Below, piece by piece: positions 30,639 through 38,583 of a DNA stretch of 38,583 bases (positions are counted from its first letter, which is position 1; each line of letters opens with the position of its first letter). This DNA comes from an uncultured Gammaproteobacteria bacterium (GTDB lineage Bacteria; Pseudomonadota; Gammaproteobacteria; JAADHQ01), in contig CAMYJO010000022.1 in NCBI GenBank assembly GCA_947258755.1, forward strand, positions 1 through 38,583, given 5' to 3'. The notes under the pieces are model-generated. The model saw nothing but the letters and a program-made list of their open reading frames with translations. It did not search any database and was not told where the DNA came from. The position numbers and the translations under genes are program-made.

Positions 30639-31997
30639 ATGTTCGAGAATCTCAGTGAACGACTGGGCAGTACGCTGCGAAATCTTCGCGGTCAGGGGCG
30701 TCTGAGCGAGGATAATATAAAAGACACCTTGCGCGAGGTGCGCATGGCCATGCTCGAGGCCGATGTCGCCCTGCCGGTGGTCAAGGACTTTATCGAACAG
30801 GTGCGTCAACGGGCGATCGGTGAAGAAGTACTGAAGAGCCTGACCCCGGGACAGGCGCTGGTCAAGGTGGTCAATGACGAGCTGGTCAAGCTCATGGGCG
30901 AGGCCAATGATAGCCTGGACCTGCAGGCACAGCCGCCAGTCGTTATCCTGATGGCCGGTCTGCAAGGTGCGGGTAAAACCACCACGGTTGCCAAGCTGGC
31001 ACGTTGGTTACAGGAACGTCAGAAAAAATCCTCTTTATTGGTTAGTTGCGATGTCTATCGTCCGGCCGCTATAGCCCAGCTGGAAACTCTGGCGGGACAG
31101 GTAGACGCCGAGTTCTTCCCCAGTAGTGCGGATCAGAGCCCGGTCAAGATAGCTACCGCTGCGCTTGATTACGCCCGTAAACATTTTAAAGATGTCGTTA
31201 TTGTCGATACCGCCGGTCGCCTGCATATCGACGATGACATGATGGATGAGATCAAGAAAATCCATGGCGCCGTCAATCCACATGAGACCCTGTTTGTTGT
31301 TGATAGCATGACCGGGCAGGATGCGGCCAATACCGCCAAGGCCTTCAACGAGGCCCTGCCCTTGACCGGTGTGATCCTGACCAAGACCGATGGCGATGCC
31401 CGCGGTGGTGCAGCCCTGTCGATTCGCCAGATCACCGGCAAGCCGATCAAGTTCTTTGGTGCCGGTGAAAAAACCGATGCGCTGGAGGCCTTTCATCCAG
31501 ATCGAGTTGCCTCTCGTATCCTCGGTATGGGTGATGTGTTGTCACTGGTCGAAGAGGCGCAGCAAAAAGTCGATCAGGACAAGGCGCAGAAGCTGGCGAA
31601 AAAACTGAAGAAGGGTAAGGGCTTCGATCTTGAGGATTTTCGTGAGCAGATGCAGCAAATGAGCAAGATGGGTGGTGTCGCCGGCTTGATGGACAAACTC
31701 CCTGGGGCAGGCAATCTGCCGCAAAACGTCAAGTCCCAGGTCAACGACAAGGAATTTAACCGCCTGATTGCGATCATTAACTCAATGACACCTCAGGAGC
31801 GTCTGCACCCGGCCATCATCAAGGGCTCGCGCAAAAAACGTATCGCTGCCGGTTCCGGCACCCAGGTCCAGGATGTCAATCGTCTGCTCAAGCAGTTCAC
31901 GCAAATGCAGAAGATGATGAAAAAGATGGCTAAGGGTGGCATGGCCAAGATGATGCGTGGCCTGAAAGGCAAGATGCCGCCGGGGATGCCGTTTTGA
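30639..31997 (+). CDS. ffh: signal recognition particle protein Ffh (SRP54)
   Basis: The 452-residue GTPase binds 4.5S RNA and signal sequences on the ribosome and targets membrane proteins to FtsY. It has the N-domain, the GTPase P-loop GLQGAGKTTT at about 107-116, DTAGR, TKTDGDARGGAALS and the methionine-rich M-domain (MQQMSKMGG; QMQKMMKKMAKGGMAKMM). A TACAAT at 30602-30607 could be its -10. It reads away from ypjD and corB in the standard arrangement, except that the MBL gene is inserted before it. Confidence 0.98.
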   Translation: MFENLSERLGSTLRNLRGQGRLSEDNIKDTLREVRMAMLEADVALPVVKDFIEQVRQRAIGEEVLKSLTPGQALVKVVNDELVKLMGEANDSLDLQAQPPVVILMAGLQGAGKTTTVAKLARWLQERQKKSSLLVSCDVYRPAAIAQLETLAGQVDAEFFPSSADQSPVKIATAALDYARKHFKDVVIVDTAGRLHIDDDMMDEIKKIHGAVNPHETLFVVDSMTGQDAANTAKAFNEALPLTGVILTKTDGDARGGAALSIRQITGKPIKFFGAGEKTDALEAFHPDRVASRILGMGDVLSLVEEAQQKVDQDKAQKLAKKLKKGKGFDLEDFREQMQQMSKMGGVAGLMDKLPGAGNLPQNVKSQVNDKEFNRLIAIINSMTPQERLHPAIIKGSRKKRIAAGSGTQVQDVNRLLKQFTQMQKMMKKMAKGGMAKMMRGLKGKMPPGMPF

Positions 31998-32086
31998 TGG
32001 GTCCTATATAGCTGTGAAAGCAGGGTGCCAGGTTTAGGCAGAATTAATGACCTTAACCACCCATCAGCTATGTGGAATGTTGGTGG

Positions 32087-32109
32087 CAGCGGTCAAGGAC
32101 CGCTCCCAT
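32087..32109 (-). repeat. REP element, GT type
   Basis: Reverse-oriented copy with stem GCGGTC-CTT-GACCGC and a GGGAG head. Its tail reads TGC instead of CGA. It lies head-to-head with the next copy. Confidence 0.9.
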
Positions 32110-32130
32110 AAAGCATAAAGGGGTGGGTTG

Positions 32131-32186
32131 GTAGGAGCGACCCTTGGTCGCGATTCAAAGTAATCGCGACCAAGGGTCGCTCCCAC
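32131..32186. repeat. REPIN: two inverted AC-type REPs
   Basis: A forward copy (32131-32153, head GTAGGAG) and a reverse copy (32164-32186, head GTGGGAG) face each other tail-to-tail across 10 bases. Both arms have stem GCGACC-CTT-GGTCGC, so the whole unit can also fold into one long hairpin, the classical REPIN form. Confidence 0.93.
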
Positions 32187-32334
32187 AGCGTATATAAGTT
32201 GGGGCATAATTTGGTTTTCTTTGCACCTTCATGCCTTCGGGGTAAAAAAGTCCTAAATCAGGCCTATATACCTTACTATATATAGTGAATTACGTGTTTT
32301 TAGCATGATTTGACTAATTATCCATCAATTGCCC

Positions 32335-32362
32335 TTCACATTTCGCCAAATTCGCGTAGAAT
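32335..32362 (+). promoter_or_regulatory. promoter of the rpsP-rimM-trmD-rplS operon
   Basis: TTCACA (32335-32340) and TAGAAT (32357-32362) each match consensus at five of six positions and are 16 bases apart. The predicted start near 32369 leaves a leader of about 60 bases before rpsP. Confidence 0.55.
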
Positions 32363-32431
32363 TCCAGCGTTTCACCTGCCGGCTTTTCCGCGCAGTTTTC
32401 AGTAGCTTATTAACAATGAGGAATAAGCGAG

Positions 32432-32674
32432 ATGGTAGTCATTCGTTTGACCCGTGGTGGTTCCAAAAAAAGGCCTTTTTATCACGTTGTGGTAACTGAT
32501 TCACGTAATCGTCGTGATGGCCGGTATATCGAGCGTCTGGGATTTTTTAATCCGGTTGCTAAAGAAAATGAAGAAGGTTTGCGTCTGGATACAGACCGGA
32601 TTGAGCATTGGGTTTCCAAGGGCGCCAAGCCCAGCGAACGCGTTGCTGCATTAATCAAACAGGCAGCTGCTTGA
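32432..32674 (+). CDS. rpsP: 30S ribosomal protein bS16
   Basis: The 80-residue basic protein begins [20 protein letters not shown] and continues [19 protein letters not shown], the complete S16 signature. It binds 16S rRNA early in 30S assembly. GAGGAATAAG precedes the ATG. It is the first gene of the four-gene ribosome operon, with rimM 12 bases later. Confidence 0.99.
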
Positions 32675-32686
32675 TTGTAGACCTGG

Positions 32687-33217
32687 ATGATCCAGGGCCA
32701 GGCCATGCAGGATTTGTCTGAAGACATTGTGTTGCTTGGCCAGGTATCGGGTTTATTTGGAGTGAAAGGTTGGGTCAAGGTTTTTTCCTATACCGAACCG
32801 AGAGAAAACATCGTGCAGTACAGTCCCTGGCTGGTAAAAACAGACAAGGGTTGGAAACAGATAAAGCTCAATCAGGGTAAACGGCAGGGCAAGAGCGTGA
32901 TCGCGAGCCTGCAAGGCTACGATGATCCGGACAGCGCCAGTACCCTGATTGGATGTGACATCGGCATGCGCCGTGAGCAATTACCGGCATTAACGGATGA
33001 TGAATTTTACTGGAATGATCTGGTCGGTTTGACGGTCATCAACCAGGACGGGATTGAGCTGGGCCAGGTGCAGCGTCTTATCGAAACCGGTTCCAATGAT
33101 GTGCTGGTTGTTCAGGGAGATCGCGAACGCCTGGTGCCCTATATCAAGGAACAGGTGATTAAGCACATTGACCTGGAGCAGAAGCTTATCCGGGTGGATT
33201 GGGATCCGGAATTTTAA
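32687..33217 (+). CDS. rimM: ribosome maturation factor RimM
   Basis: The 176-residue protein helps the 30S head mature, through contacts with S19. The N-terminal RimM barrel has [20 protein letters not shown], and the PRC-barrel has [16 protein letters not shown], ending [20 protein letters not shown]. An in-frame ATG at 32705 is an alternative start that removes six residues; neither start has a strong ribosome-binding site. The gene lies between rpsP and trmD, as expected. Confidence 0.97.
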
Positions 33218-33237
33218 CGGCCCGGGATTGTTATCAG

Positions 33238-34011
33238 ATGCGTATTGATGTGGTGACATTATTTCCGCAACTGGTACAGGCGGTTGCGGAGTGCGGTATA
33301 ACCGGTCGCGCCGTTAACGCAGGTATCCTTGAGCTGCAATACTGGAACCCGCGCGAATTTACGCATGACCGGCATCGCACCGTTGATGACAAGCCTTATG
33401 GCGGTGGTCCGGGCATGTTGATGAAGTACCAGCCCTTGCATGATGCCATACAAGCGGCGCGTGCGGCGTCAGTAAAAGTCAGCGATAAGGTGCCCAAGGT
33501 TATTTACCTGTCACCACAGGGTAGGCGGCTTGACCAGCAGGCAGTGAACAGGCTGGCACAGGAAGATTTAATCCTGGTTGCCGGGCGCTACGAAGGCATA
33601 GACGAGCGCCTGATAGAACAGGATATTGATGAGGAGTGGTCGATTGGCGACTATGTCCTCAGCGGCGGTGAACTGGCGGCGATGGTGTTGATCGATGCGA
33701 CCACGCGATTGCAACCGGACGCATTGGGTGATGAAGATTCGGCGCAGCTGGATTCATTCATGGATGGTCTGCTCGACTATCCACATTATACGCGCCCGGA
33801 GCAGATTGACGGTCAAGACGTTCCGGCCGTATTGCTCAGTGGTAACCATCGCGATATAGAGCGCTGGCGTATGAAGCAGTCGCTGGGCAGGACCTGGCAA
33901 CGGCGCCCGGATCTGATACAGGAACAAGCGCTGGATGCGCAACAACGTAGCCTGTTAAATGAATATATTGACGAATTGAACAGTTTAGATAGAAATAAAA
34001 CCAGTAAATAG
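33238..34011 (+). CDS. trmD: tRNA (guanine-N1)-methyltransferase
   Basis: The enzyme methylates G37 of tRNAs to prevent frameshifting. From the ATG at 33238 it has 257 residues, close to E. coli TrmD (255), starting [14 protein letters not shown]. An upstream ATG at 33199 would overlap the end of rimM and is rejected. The knotted SAM site is visible as [24 protein letters not shown] and [20 protein letters not shown]. The C-terminal domain has [20 protein letters not shown]. Confidence 0.98.
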
Positions 34012-34023
34012 AGGTTTGCAAAC

Positions 34024-34374
34024 ATGGGTAATATCATAGAAGAGCTTGAAAAAGAACAAATGAACCGTGAAGTTCCTGACTTTGGTCCGGGTGATACGGT
34101 TGTTGTACAGGTAAAGGTAAAGGAAGGTACTCGTGAACGTTTGCAGGCCTTTGAGGGTGTTGTTATTGCCAAGCGTAACCGCGGTCTGAACTCTGCTTTT
34201 ACGGTACGTAAGATTTCCCACGGTGAAGGCGTTGAACGTGTCTTTCAGACCCATAGCCCGCAAGTGGCCGCTATCGAGGTCAAACGTCGTGGTGATGTAC
34301 GTCGTGCCAAGCTTTATTACCTGCGTGAGCGTACTGGTAAGGCCGCGCGCATCAAGGAAAAACTGGCGAAATGA
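34024..34374 (+). CDS. rplS: 50S ribosomal protein bL19
   Basis: The 116-residue protein has the L19 core: [40 protein letters not shown] and a C-terminal basic part ending [20 protein letters not shown]. It sits at the 30S-50S interface. AGAGG lies before the ATG, 12 bases after trmD. It is the last gene of the operon and is followed by a strong intrinsic terminator. Confidence 0.99.
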
Positions 34375-34429
34375 TTTGACGGCTCCGGTCTGTCACGAAT
34401 ACATGGCAGACTGGATTGATTCGTCACTA

Positions 34430-34463
34430 AAAACGGGTATCCTTAGCGGGATGCCCGTTTTTT
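34430..34463 (+). terminator. rho-independent terminator of the rpsP-rplS operon
   Basis: AAAACGGG-T-ATCC (30 to 42 of this hundred) pairs with GGAT-G-CCCGTTTT (49 to 61) in a 13-pair stem with one T-G wobble and the loop TTAGCG, directly followed by further T residues. It is 55 bases after the rplS stop and the best terminator in the window. Confidence 0.9.
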
Positions 34464-34491
34464 ATTGTCCGCAAAAATTAAGGGAGAAGGC

Positions 34492-36309
34492 ATGTTAAGC
34501 GCCCGCATGTTAGGCCGGTTTGTGTTGTTAATGACGATTGCGTTGACGCAGGCGCCTGCTCAAGCCAGTGAAATTAGGGAGCTTGAGCTGCTCATTCAAT
34601 CCGGCGCCTCGAACCTGGCTTTGCAGGTGCTCGACCGTGAGCAGCCCGGCCTGGCGGACAATCCCGAGCATTGGCTGCAATGGGAAAATCAACGCATTAA
34701 GCTGTATCAGCATACCAAGAACTGGGACGGACTGATTAAGCGGCTACGGACACTGCCAAGCTGGGTGCCGCACAGCTATCGGGTCAAGGCGCTGGAAACG
34801 ATTGCCCGTGCGCAAATTGAAAAGAAGGACACGCGCGCTGCATTACAGACATTACGGCAATTGATCTGGGATCACTCGACTGGTAAAGAAGATATACATT
34901 ATCAAAAGTTCCTGCCGGTGTGGCGGCAATTGGTGATCCAGGCCTACCTGGTTGCAGAAAACATTACCGATGCGGAGCTGGCGATGTTGCGCTTCCAGCA
35001 GGATTATCCAAACCCGCTAGGGGCCTGGAAGCGTGCCCGCGCTACTGTCCTGATCCGCTCAGGAAAACCCGAAGATGCACAGCTCCTGATGAAAGGCGAA
35101 ACGCACATGCATTCGCGTACTATTTATTATCTGGCGCAGTTGCTGACGCAAAAGACCAAGCCTAAGGCTATTTGGAAGCGCACCCGTAAGCTTGCGCACA
35201 ATAAAAAATTTGCGGATTCAACCCGCCGACAGTTCTGGTTAGTGGCCTCGCGTGCTGCCCGTCAAGTAGGCGATTATGCCTCTGCGATTCGGGCATTGAA
35301 GCAGGCCGTGGTGTTAGTGGATGACAAGGAGGTGCTGACGCAGCGCGAGCGACTGTTGTTTGCCATCAATAGCGATGACCTGTGGACCTTGTATAAAGAG
35401 TACGGCAACAAACTCGGCAACCAATGGCAATTGCTGACAGGCCAAGATGAAGCCTGGTTCACAAAGGCATCTAACCTGGTTGATAAAAAACCCTTGCAGG
35501 CAATGGCCCTGTTTGCTGCGATGACCACGGAGACCAGTCGTGCGCGCACGCGCAAGCTGGCTCATGAATTATTTGCTTCCTTGTTGGCCAAGGAGAAGCA
35601 TGGTTTGTTATTGGTGAAAAAACTCTATCTTGCTACAGCGGACAATAAGCAAAATGACAGGACGGTTTATATTCCCGAGGACCTGCGCCACCGACTGATT
35701 GATGACGCGCTGTCACATTCTGATATCAATACGGCCTCACGTCTGGTGCAAACCGTGACCGAGCCGCCCAAGGGAGCCAATGTGCTGTTCTGGAAAATGC
35801 GCAGGGCACGCATCATGATCCTGGCAGGGCAGGTGGATGACGGTATAAAGGTATTGGAGAAATTGCTGGCGGATGCATCGACCATGCCTGCAGACCAGAT
35901 TGACCGGCTGATACAGGTGCTGTTCGATTTGCAAACAGTCGGGCGACATAAGGAAGCGATTAATCTATTCAGCAGCATTCCCCTGGAAGGGCAGCGCGGT
36001 CAACTGCGCCGCGAGATCCTGTACTGGACCGCCGATTCTTATAAGGAACTGAAGCAGTATCATCAGGCGGGCCGCTATTATCTATTGTCTGCGGGTTTAT
36101 TAGATAGCAAGGCCATGGATCCCTGGGCGCAAACGGCGCGTTATCATGCCGCGGATGCGCTGGTGTCTGCCGGAGACTACGAGGACGCCGGCCGTATCTA
36201 TGAGGGCCTACTCAAAGTCACGCAGGAACCAGGGCGTAAGGTGGTTTTGAAAAACAAGATCCAGCAAATCTGGTTACAATCCAACCAAAGGCGTCAGGAC
36301 AAAATTTAG
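34492..36309 (+). CDS. exported TPR-like repeat protein
   Basis: The ATG at 34492, preceded by GGGAGAAGG, gives 605 residues with a signal peptide (basic start, LLMTIALTQAPAQA-SE). A TTG at 34465 upstream is rejected because the ribosome-binding site lies inside that longer frame. The mature protein is a long array of helix pairs resembling tetratricopeptide repeats (e.g. ALQTLRQLIWD, AVKYL-like units such as ADAEL and YHQAGRYYLLSAGLLDSK; AADALVSAGDYEDAGRIYEG). It is probably a periplasmic scaffold. No family name is recognised, and function is unknown. It follows the ribosomal operon but has its own translation signals. Confidence 0.78.
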   Translation: MLSARMLGRFVLLMTIALTQAPAQASEIRELELLIQSGASNLALQVLDREQPGLADNPEHWLQWENQRIKLYQHTKNWDGLIKRLRTLPSWVPHSYRVKALETIARAQIEKKDTRAALQTLRQLIWDHSTGKEDIHYQKFLPVWRQLVIQAYLVAENITDAELAMLRFQQDYPNPLGAWKRARATVLIRSGKPEDAQLLMKGETHMHSRTIYYLAQLLTQKTKPKAIWKRTRKLAHNKKFADSTRRQFWLVASRAARQVGDYASAIRALKQAVVLVDDKEVLTQRERLLFAINSDDLWTLYKEYGNKLGNQWQLLTGQDEAWFTKASNLVDKKPLQAMALFAAMTTETSRARTRKLAHELFASLLAKEKHGLLLVKKLYLATADNKQNDRTVYIPEDLRHRLIDDALSHSDINTASRLVQTVTEPPKGANVLFWKMRRARIMILAGQVDDGIKVLEKLLADASTMPADQIDRLIQVLFDLQTVGRHKEAINLFSSIPLEGQRGQLRREILYWTADSYKELKQYHQAGRYYLLSAGLLDSKAMDPWAQTARYHAADALVSAGDYEDAGRIYEGLLKVTQEPGRKVVLKNKIQQIWLQSNQRRQDKI

Positions 36310-36402
36310 TGTTGGCTGTTCTTGTTTGGTTAAATAAAGTATATGCAAAAAGATAAATTTGATGGCGATGTTGGCCACCCATTTCACGACAGGGGAGTTG
36401 CG

Positions 36403-36876
36403 ATGAATCAACAGGACTATAGTGCCATTATCCGTTCACCGATCGGCAAGTTGGGTATCCTTGTTAATAAACATTGCCTGCTGCGATTGGATTTTCTACC
36501 CGAGCAGGCCAGGGTCAGACAGCCGCGCAATGAATTGGCTGCCGAGGTGGTGAGTCAGCTACAGCAGTATTTTGAAGATCCGCAGTTTGCATTTTCAATT
36601 GCCTGCGATATGGAGGGGACTGCATACCAGCGCAAGGTCTGGAATCGTTTGCAAGCGATCAGGTCGGGCCGCTGTATGACCTATTCTGATGTAGCGGAAA
36701 AGCTGCATAGTGGCGCACGTGCAGTGGGTGGCGCCTGTCGCTCTAATCCGGTGCCGATTATCGTTCCCTGTCATCGTGTCATCTCGAAGTCGGGAGTAGG
36801 TGGTTATGATGGTGACTGGGGTGCGGGCAAGGTCAATATCAAGAAATGGCTGCTAAACCATGAGGGTGTTATTTGA
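36403..36876 (+). CDS. methylated-DNA--protein-cysteine methyltransferase
   Basis: The ATG at 36403 has an AGGGGAG ribosome-binding site and gives 157 residues. An in-frame ATG at 36343 would add 20 residues without such a site. The protein takes the methyl group from O6-methylguanine onto a cysteine and is then spent. The active site VPCHRV has C123, preceded by the recognition helix segment GARAVGGACRSNPVPII. The family covers both Ogt and the Ada C-terminal domain; this single-domain form fits Ogt. REP elements begin 11 bases after its stop. Confidence 0.93.
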   Translation: MNQQDYSAIIRSPIGKLGILVNKHCLLRLDFLPEQARVRQPRNELAAEVVSQLQQYFEDPQFAFSIACDMEGTAYQRKVWNRLQAIRSGRCMTYSDVAEKLHSGARAVGGACRSNPVPIIVPCHRVISKSGVGGYDGDWGAGKVNIKKWLLNHEGVI

Positions 36877-36887
36877 GCGCCTATCCT

Positions 36888-36944
36888 GTGGGAGCGGTCC
36901 TTGACCGCGATTACTATTTTATCGCGACCAAGGGTCGCTCCCAT
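36888..36944. repeat. REPIN with unlike arms (GT left, AC right)
   Basis: Forward copy 36888-36910 has stem GCGGTC-CTT-GACCGC. Reverse copy 36922-36944 has stem GCGACC-CTT-GGTCGC. An 11-base AT-rich spacer (TTACTATTTTA) separates them. Each arm folds alone, but pairing between the arms would have mismatches at the variable positions. Confidence 0.92.
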
Positions 36945-36960
36945 AGGGTAAGAGGGGTTG

Positions 36961-37053
36961 GTGGGAGCAACTACCGTTACTGGAATTGTCCAAGGCCTGG
37001 TGCTATGTCTTGGCTGTGAAGGGATAGCTTTCGCGGTCAAGGACCGCTCCCAC
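36961..37053. repeat. REP doublet with a decayed left arm
   Basis: A lone GTGGGAGC head at 36961-36968 is followed by unrelated sequence, while an intact reverse GT-type copy sits at 37031-37053. The left member looks degraded or recombined. The intact copy is the firm part of the call. Confidence 0.6.
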
Positions 37054-37070
37054 AGGTGATAGGTTTTTTT

Positions 37071-37093
37071 GTGGGAGCGACCCTTGGTCGCGA
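37071..37093 (+). repeat. REP element, AC type, upstream of the RAYT gene
   Basis: Full forward copy with stem GCGACC-CTT-GGTCGC, head-to-head with the reverse copy at 37031-37053 across 17 bases ending in a T-run. It lies 44 bases before the RAYT start. Confidence 0.9.
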
Positions 37094-37137
37094 AAAATCA
37101 ACGTCTACATAATTTATGAACAAATAAGGAGGGCAGG

Positions 37138-37593
37138 ATGCCAGATACTCCACATAGCAAGGATCTGAGAAAGGGTCGTTTTTCCGAAGCTCACAGAATC
37201 TATCACATCACCACGACAACGATGAATCGACAGGCGTGGTTCAGCAATTACCAGTGTGGACGAATCGTTGTTCACAAGCTCAAACAAGAGGCAGTCAGAG
37301 CGCAAACGCTGGCCTTTGTGGTAATGCCAGATCATTTGCACTGGTTGATGCAACTAAAAGAAGGGGTAGCTGTAAGCCAGGTCGTAAAGAATATTAAATC
37401 TATGAGTGCATTTGAGATTAATAAATTCCTGGGTAGAAACGGCAGTATCTGGCAACCCGGTTTTCATGATCATGCTCTTAGACGGGAAGAGGACATCAAG
37501 GTGCTGGCTAGGTATATTATAGCCAACCCGCTCAGGGCGGGTATTGTCAGAAGTTTGGGGGAGTATCCCTTGTGGGATGCGGTGTGGTTATAA
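37138..37593 (+). CDS. REP-associated tyrosine transposase (RAYT)
   Basis: The 151-residue protein has the Y1 HUH signature V-V-M-P-D-H66-L-H68-W-L, the N-terminal GRFSEAHRIYHITTTT, the WQPGFHDHALR block and the catalytic-tyrosine helix ARYIIANPLRAGIV with Y126. It belongs to the IS200/IS605-related domesticated family that recognises and processes REP hairpins. AAGGAGGGCAGG precedes the ATG, an excellent ribosome-binding site. Length is slightly short but complete. At least six intact REP copies lie within 1 kb on its two sides, and their stems are the probable substrates. Confidence 0.94.
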   Translation: MPDTPHSKDLRKGRFSEAHRIYHITTTTMNRQAWFSNYQCGRIVVHKLKQEAVRAQTLAFVVMPDHLHWLMQLKEGVAVSQVVKNIKSMSAFEINKFLGRNGSIWQPGFHDHALRREEDIKVLARYIIANPLRAGIVRSLGEYPLWDAVWL

Positions 37594-37612
37594 ATCGCGA
37601 CCAAGGGGCCGT
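37594..37612 (-). repeat. truncated AC-type REP touching the RAYT stop codon
   Basis: The plus strand reads TCGCGACCAAGGG right after the stop codon, then GCCG and a run of T in place of the expected TCGCTCCCAC. The copy keeps its tail and inner stem half but has lost its GGGAG head. The T-run could also terminate the RAYT transcript. Confidence 0.7.
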
Positions 37613-37673
37613 TTTTTAATGCTTTCAAGGTATGGCCCTGTTAGCTGCTCCTTCAAAACCTGCCACATAACCT

Positions 37674-37730
37674 GTGGGAGCGGTCCTTGACCGCGATTAT
37701 CATTCTATCGCGACCAAGGGTCGCTCCCAC
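37674..37730. repeat. REPIN with unlike arms (GT left, AC right), second copy
   Basis: Forward GT-type 37674-37696 and reverse AC-type 37708-37730 with an 11-base spacer (TTATCATTCTA). The order, spacing and arm types match the unit at 36888-36944, so both probably derive from one parent copy. Confidence 0.92.
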
Positions 37731-37759
37731 AGAGCATGATGCAAGGAGTTGGGGGTTTA

Positions 37760-37782
37760 GTGGGAGCGGTCCTTGACCGCGA
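37760..37782 (+). repeat. single REP element, GT type
   Basis: Intact forward copy with no reverse partner within the next 100 bases. It is the last REP before htpG. Confidence 0.88.
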
Positions 37783-37845
37783 AAGGCTGCCTTGGGGCTA
37801 AAATTGCTGATACTGCCTGAATTCCCTGTTTTTTTTCAAAATAGT

Positions 37846-37874
37846 CTTGAAATCCAGCAATATGCACTTATATC
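37846..37874 (+). promoter_or_regulatory. candidate heat-shock (sigma-32) or sigma-70 promoter of htpG
   Basis: CTTGAAA (37846-37852) equals the sigma-32 -35 consensus. A CCCAT-like -10 is poor (CACTTAT at 37865-37871). The same region reads TTGAAA with TATATC (37869-37874) 16 bases later as a sigma-70 pair. The start would be near 37880, leaving an 80-base leader. Confidence 0.45.
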
Positions 37875-37896
37875 AACAAAACCAGAATTTTATCCC

Positions 37897-37918
37897 ACCC
37901 CGAAGGCTTATTCGGGGT
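37897..37918 (+). other. hairpin in the htpG leader
   Basis: ACCCCGAA (37897-37904) and TTCGGGGT (37911-37918) form a perfect 8-bp stem with the loop GGCTTA, 41 bases before the htpG start. It does not cover the AGGAG ribosome-binding site at 37945-37949. Confidence 0.55.
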
Positions 37919-37959
37919 ATCCCGGTTAAGACAAATAGATAGGCAGGAGACGTCAACAG

Positions 37960-38583
37960 ATGACCGTAGAAGCACATAAAGAAACCCTCGATTTCCAGGC
38001 CGAGGCCAAACAACTGTTGCAGCTGATGATTCATTCGCTGTACTCCGATAAAGAGATATTCATTCGTGAGCTGATCTCGAATGCCTCGGACGCCTGCGAC
38101 AAGCTACGTTTCGAGGCCTTGTCCGATGACGCACTCTATGAAGATGATGCCGATTTAAAGATTACCGTTGATTATGACAAAGACGCCAGGACCATTACCC
38201 TGACAGATAATGGTATCGGCATGAACCGCCAGGAAGTGACAGATAATATCGGTACCATTGCCAAGTCCGGTACGAAAAAATTCTTTGAAAGCCTGACCGG
38301 TGACCAGGCCAAGGATGCCAATCTGATCGGCCAGTTCGGGGTCGGTTTTTATTCGGCATTTATTGTTGCCGACAAGCTGGTGCTGGAAACACGTCGTGCC
38401 GGGCTGACACAAGAGCATGGTGTGCGTTGGGAGTCCAATGGCGAAGGCAGTTACAGTCTGGAAACTATCGACAAGCCTGTCAGGGGCACTAGCGTAACGC
38501 TGCACCTGAGAGAAGGTGAAGACGAGTTTATCGAGGATTTTCGTCTGCGCAGCATTATCAAGAAATATTCTGACCATATTAAC
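37960..38583 (+). CDS. htpG: chaperone HtpG (Hsp90), N-terminal part, cut by window edge
   Basis: The frame is open from the ATG at 37960 to the window end: 208 codons of about 630 expected. Hsp90 motifs are intact: [20 protein letters not shown], the ATP-binding ELISNASDA with N41, DNGIGM at 83-88 and [11 protein letters not shown] from 124. HtpG is a stress-induced cytosolic ATP-dependent chaperone. AGGAG lies 10 bases before the ATG. The gene has its own likely heat-shock promoter and a leader hairpin, and follows the REP cluster. A 140-residue open frame on the opposite strand is a shadow. Confidence 0.97.

Follow-up and report, generated by a model that had tools for sequence, protein, structure and literature searches.

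The closest described relatives of the locus analyzed here are the REPtrons of Pseudomonas and Stenotrophomonas, each built around a RAYT (tnpA-REP) gene (Nunvar 2010, 2013; Corneloup 2021). In the standard view, a RAYT with an inverted REP on each side is likened to a transposon or to a REPIN that has expanded (Nunvar 2010, PMC2817692; Bertels & Rainey 2011, PMC3116915). REPs in inverted orientation around the gene, REPs starting directly past the stop codon, RAYT immobility and local REP accumulation have likewise been published. Other accounts (Nunvar 2013, PMC3686654; Di Nocera 2013, PMC3733652; Corneloup 2021, PMC8266576) agree with this known REPtron picture.

We find that the present locus is of the REPtron kind. 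It lies in a window of 38,583 nt, the whole stretch of DNA that was analyzed, which lies on contig C22 of G000, a genome of 3.2 Mb assembled into 49 contigs. In common with the Pseudomonas and Stenotrophomonas REPtrons, it encodes a Y1 HUH transposase of the REP_Tyr_transpos equivalog, carries GTGG-headed palindromes on both sides and a REP right at the stop codon, has a same-locus ortholog associated with a different REP class, and belongs to a genus in which REP abundance tracks RAYT presence. Unlike them, it has a 37-nt insert interrupting its stop-codon REP, and the REP class adjacent to the RAYT is local while another class dominates the genome. A REP class concentrated near its RAYT is also known for marine gammaproteobacterial RAYTs (Nunvar 2010; Marinomonas in Corneloup 2021); here, however, the local concentration is limited to the AC subclass, with related classes found throughout the genome, and the gene seems to have been inherited vertically rather than to have arrived recently.

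The RAYT gene (37138-37593, + strand) is a 151-aa open reading frame with intact HUH (MPDHLH) and tyrosine (ARYIIANP) motifs, situated between an ogt-like methyltransferase gene and htpG. Its product scores 140.1 bits against the RAYT-specific NCBIfam profile NF047646 (REP_Tyr_transpos equivalog; cut-off 80) and matches Pfam Y1_Tnp at 1.8e-12, and its best PDB relative is the TnpArep structure 4er8 (6.6e-13). The residues H66, H68 and Y126 are invariant in our alignment (A1). The protein is thus a Y1 transposase with an HUH motif, a catalytic tyrosine and a RAYT-specific profile match, and its gene has REPs on either side (forward at 37071-37093, reverse and split at 37594-37654) and many more nearby. 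It is present in one copy in G000, at a fixed chromosomal position that is also occupied in the related genome G003, in keeping with vertical inheritance. The two other Y1 genes of G000 were considered as RAYTs and rejected: their proteins are 26-28% identical and the flanks that we read contain no such REPs, and they look like other Y1 elements. A Y1 transposase-like gene elsewhere in the same genome (L001, C12:88062-91391) has numerous AAACAATTGTTCTCTGACCCGGGTTT copies in its flanks, which make up a repeat system of another kind.

A sequence-only reading of the window had placed the gene inside a REP pair. Its 5' member was borne out: an intact forward AC-type REP, GTGGGAGCGACCCTTGGTCGCGA, occupies 37071-37093 (+), exactly 44 nt from the ATG at 37138. 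The two nearest REPs are real, but calling them a pair selects two from the eight or more REPs and REP derivatives that crowd positions 36888-37782, and given this crowding the two are not unique arms. Upstream of the gene are a 57-nt REPIN with a GT arm and an AC arm (36888-36944, +; fold -35.3 kcal/mol, z -7.5), a second split REP-like copy (36959-37020, +) and a GT-type REP (37031-37053, -) that lies head-to-head with the REP at 37071. Downstream are another 57-nt REPIN with a GT and an AC arm (37674-37730, +), which matches the first at 89% identity over 72 nt, and a GT-type REP singlet (37760-37782, +). A further REPIN, of AC/AC type, is found downstream of an ffh-like gene (32131-32186, +).

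As inverted 57-nt REP doublets that fold as long hairpins, the REPINs of the window resemble those of Bertels & Rainey (2011). The commonest REP doublet of the genome differs from that description, being about 148 nt long and having a conserved GTAGCTAG-rich spacer of GTAGCTAGTGGCTAG-like repeats; it is spread over many contigs (L131-L179), and 18 of the 39 doublets in G000 are 147-150 nt long. We also observe that the head-to-head GT and AC REPs (37031-37053 and 37071-37093) form a strong hairpin immediately 5' of the RAYT (37029-37095; -40.8 kcal/mol as RNA, z -6.3), which could limit read-through into the gene.

On the 3' side the RAYT stop codon, TAA, is followed by one A and then by a 13-nt AC-type REP tail, TCGCGACCAAGGG (37595-37607). 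With the abutting base this is the tail half of a reverse REP, consisting of the 3' stem arm and the loop (37594-37607, -). The 12-mer core of TCGCGACCAAGGG occurs six times in the window against 0.16 expected, and the tail is not a chance match. The sequence-only reading was therefore right to see a reverse AC-type REP directly after the stop. It had further proposed that this REP lost its GGGAG head, and in this it was mistaken: the part seemingly absent is more than GGGAG, namely the whole 5' half (head and 5' stem arm), which has been displaced by a 37-nt insert (37608-37644, +) and not deleted. Beyond the insert lies a decayed head half, CTGCTCCTTC (37645-37654, -; the minus strand reads GAAGGAGCAG).

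This interpretation rests on the recurrence of the split unit at three other sites in G000, which is why the 3' REP is taken as split and not as headless. A genome-wide search for TCGCGACCAAGGG led to a site at about C1:36850 that is absent from the listed full REPs and that continues as at the RAYT, with ATCGCGACCAAGGG, about 37 nt and then a REP head half; the alignment of the two inserts beats all 500 of 500 shuffles. A profile built without it picked up a third copy, at C34:14347 (E 2.5e-8 in the set searched), and these three units share 85% mean column identity over 64 nt. The fourth, at C17:85078, was recovered at E 4e-13 by the three-copy model, which excludes C17. All four have one junction in common, CCAAGGG followed by the insert and then by a CCGC-like head half, and the head half at the RAYT agrees with the other three in position and junction. 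We accordingly rejected the reading of ATCGCGACCAAGGG after the stop as a headless or plainly truncated REP, as the 61-64-nt unit is found elsewhere and the 5' half stands 37 nt further on. A BLAST search with the 66-nt region after the REP remnant returned no significant second copy. The remnant was also considered as an intrinsic terminator and rejected; its fold is no better than that of shuffles (z 0.54) and a terminator scan reported none there.

Two further split copies, at C12:118470 and at 36959-37020, carry the insert in the opposite orientation. In the latter, upstream of the RAYT, the insert occupies 36973-37007 and is opposite in orientation relative to the REP; its middle, compared with L133, was equalled by 0 of 500 shuffles, and the copy scores 2.4e-16 in nhmmer with a two-sequence model that includes it.

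The insert at the stop codon is a member of a genus-wide family of about 36-nt repeats (match 37609-37641, E 1.4e-5). We identified about 13 matches to a 36-position insert model in G000, 7 in G001, 42 in G002 and 0 in G003, counting matches at E up to 0.1; these copy numbers are approximate, the profile behind the weaker matches having itself been trained on part of the set. The match in the upstream copy (36973-37007) has an E of 0.012 with this model. The family is thus present in three of the four genomes of the genus and is most abundant in G002, which has neither a RAYT nor REPs and in which the unit forms head-to-tail tandem arrays (C5, C22 and C63 of that genome). In G000, sites of this ACCGTTTATTnATTCTTCAAATGAATGGCCTTTTAG-like repeat of about 36-37 nt are found in the window (37608-37644 and 36973-37007) and on C1, C34, C17, C12, C11, C26, C43 and C5, and the insert also occurs inside a second palindromic repeat, for example as GTCATTGCGAGG, insert, ACGAAGCAATCTC at C11. 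An Rfam search of 31900-38583, insert included, gave no match, and a narrow literature search did not find the insert. Insertion sequences that target REPs, as one report describes them (PMC1525189), likewise place DNA inside REPs; relative to that description, the present insert, at about 36 nt, is far too short to encode a transposase and also occurs in a second palindromic repeat and in tandem arrays. What split the REP at the RAYT stop is an insert of this family. We suggest tentatively, at slightly less than even confidence, that a non-coding unit of 36-37 nt inserts at a fixed point in palindromes of two unrelated families (REPs and the GTCATTGCGAGG...CGAAGCAATCTC repeat), in either orientation, and builds tandem arrays, independently of the RAYT.

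Comparison of the locus across the genus bears on how long the gene has been in place. G003 contains an orthologous RAYT at the equivalent locus, where it likewise follows the TPR-protein and ogt-like genes and adjoins an apparent htpG start, at which the G003 contig ends. The two RAYTs are 63% identical, their neighbors 53-64%, and the RAYTs are sisters in the RAYT tree (support 98/76). The G003 gene is bordered on each side by intact REP pairs of a different class, GTAGGAGCGGCATTCAGCCGCGA. The closest REP to its stop is a forward one, 31 nt off, so the reverse REP that abuts the stop in G000 is not a conserved feature of the genus.

The nearest relative of G000 is G002 (ParE 94%, HtpG 96%), whose ogt-htpG gap of about 215 nt lacks a RAYT, and none was found in G001. 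The G002 site is thus an empty locus of the kind that the sequence-only reading had named as one that would show a mobile ancestor. We rejected it as a scar or pre-insertion site, however, since the only REP trace in it is an 8-mer at chance level (reached in 174 of 1000 shuffles) and the tree position favors loss. The presence of the gene in G000 and G003 and its absence from G002 is best read as old residence followed by loss, with the root of the four genomes not firmly set, and the RAYT has most likely been at its present locus since before the genus diversified. The locus does not behave as a mobile whole unit, a REPIN carrying a RAYT: the gene is single-copy, and no clean pre-insertion site came to light. 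REP copy number follows RAYT presence, with 101 matches in G000 and 62 in G003, which have a RAYT, and 3 in G001 and 0 in G002, which do not.

To place these flanks in a broader setting, we surveyed 89 RAYT loci drawn from two sets (9 and 80), which are not phylogenetically independent. Of the 89, 74 have a REP head no more than 70 nt from the RAYT stop, compared with 1.6% of windows inside the gene, and the nearest downstream REP is reverse with an intact stem in 37 loci, 2-44 nt past the stop. REP flanks are conserved across the 89 loci, and the sequence-only reading's comparison of the locus to an expanded REPIN holds in outline. Orientation is less consistent. By strict calls, the forward/reverse combination is more frequent than any other, at 25 of 53 two-sided loci, but the excess stems from the loci of Pseudomonas and Stutzerimonas, 47 in number; among the remaining 42, the orientation combinations all occur at similar rates (forward/reverse in 9 of 31). 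We thus rejected a universal inverted-pair rule, which perfect-stem REP calls do not support outside these two genera, and because orientation is near random there, the forward/reverse layout alone is weak evidence. In a separate observation from the survey, an overlapping REP contributes, through its GTAG head, the TAG stop of the RAYT at L007, L057, L065, L077, L083, L099, L106 and L115.

An ordinary REPtron is, in our view, very probable here: a domesticated RAYT of IS200/IS605 type, present once and residing at one site amid its likely REP substrates. The surrounding REPs would be the substrates for cleavage and strand transfer and would be mobilized by the RAYT, whose action probably extends in trans to distant REPINs and favors REPs close to its own gene. 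Just past the stop, the reverse REP would be a normal RAYT-abutting one, later split in its loop by the 37-nt unit, and decay of its head would have followed the insertion. Against this account stand the poor folding of the split REP as single-stranded DNA, the lack of an abutting reverse REP in G003 and a possible origin of the local AC-type REPs in tandem duplication or gene conversion, given the 89% identity of the flanking REPINs over 72 nt.

These AC-type REPs are confined to the RAYT neighborhood. A genome-wide search placed all five GACCCTTGGTC cores of G000, contributed by the RAYT cluster and the AC/AC REPIN, at 32139-37722 of C22, so that no strict AC-type REP lies more than 5.6 kb from the RAYT (32131-37730), a pattern that comprises five intact copies in about four units. 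Most of the approximately 109 REPs of G000 are, in contrast, of GC type and spread over many contigs. A preference of the RAYT for nearby REPs would account for the confinement, and the clustering fits published REP-class switching at the RAYT together with preferential action nearby. An "orthoswitch", in which the RAYT-flanking REPs mutated to AC and this young class has so far multiplied only locally while the older GC class is found genome-wide, is to our minds evenly poised: it draws on the local AC cores, the genome-wide GC majority and a published model that includes preferential action on nearby REPs, but the copies are few, local duplication could have produced them, and the GT class is common to G003, which leaves the ancestral class at the RAYT unsettled.

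Local duplication or gene conversion among neighboring REPs, with no part played by the RAYT, is a live alternative that we regard as rather doubtful. The similarity of the two flanking REPINs extends beyond the REP arms, as duplication would have it, but the spacer of the AC/AC REPIN (32131-32186) is a different one, and that REPIN stands about 5 kb off, with several genes in between. Least of all do we credit the sequence-only reading's model of a REPIN that expanded to carry its transposase and kept its mobility until the loss of a head from one REP fixed the gene: the two nearest REPs are AC-type in REPIN-like opposite orientation, and forward/reverse is the commonest joint class, but a head displaced by an insert was not deleted, the G003 ortholog kept intact REPs on both sides yet stayed equally in place, orientation is near random outside Pseudomonas and Stutzerimonas, and published RAYTs are immobile whether their REPs are intact or not, which together make it very improbable.

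With the locus taken as an ordinary REPtron, the fixed position of a RAYT needs no broken end, and an apparently decapitated REP beside a transposase can be the effect of a nested repeat. The AC-type REPs near the gene offer a natural test, on a small scale, of whether the RAYT prefers REPs in its vicinity. The 36-37-nt insert provides a handle on how very short repeats enter palindromes and, if it moves by a route of its own, would be a very small element specialized in hairpin loops.
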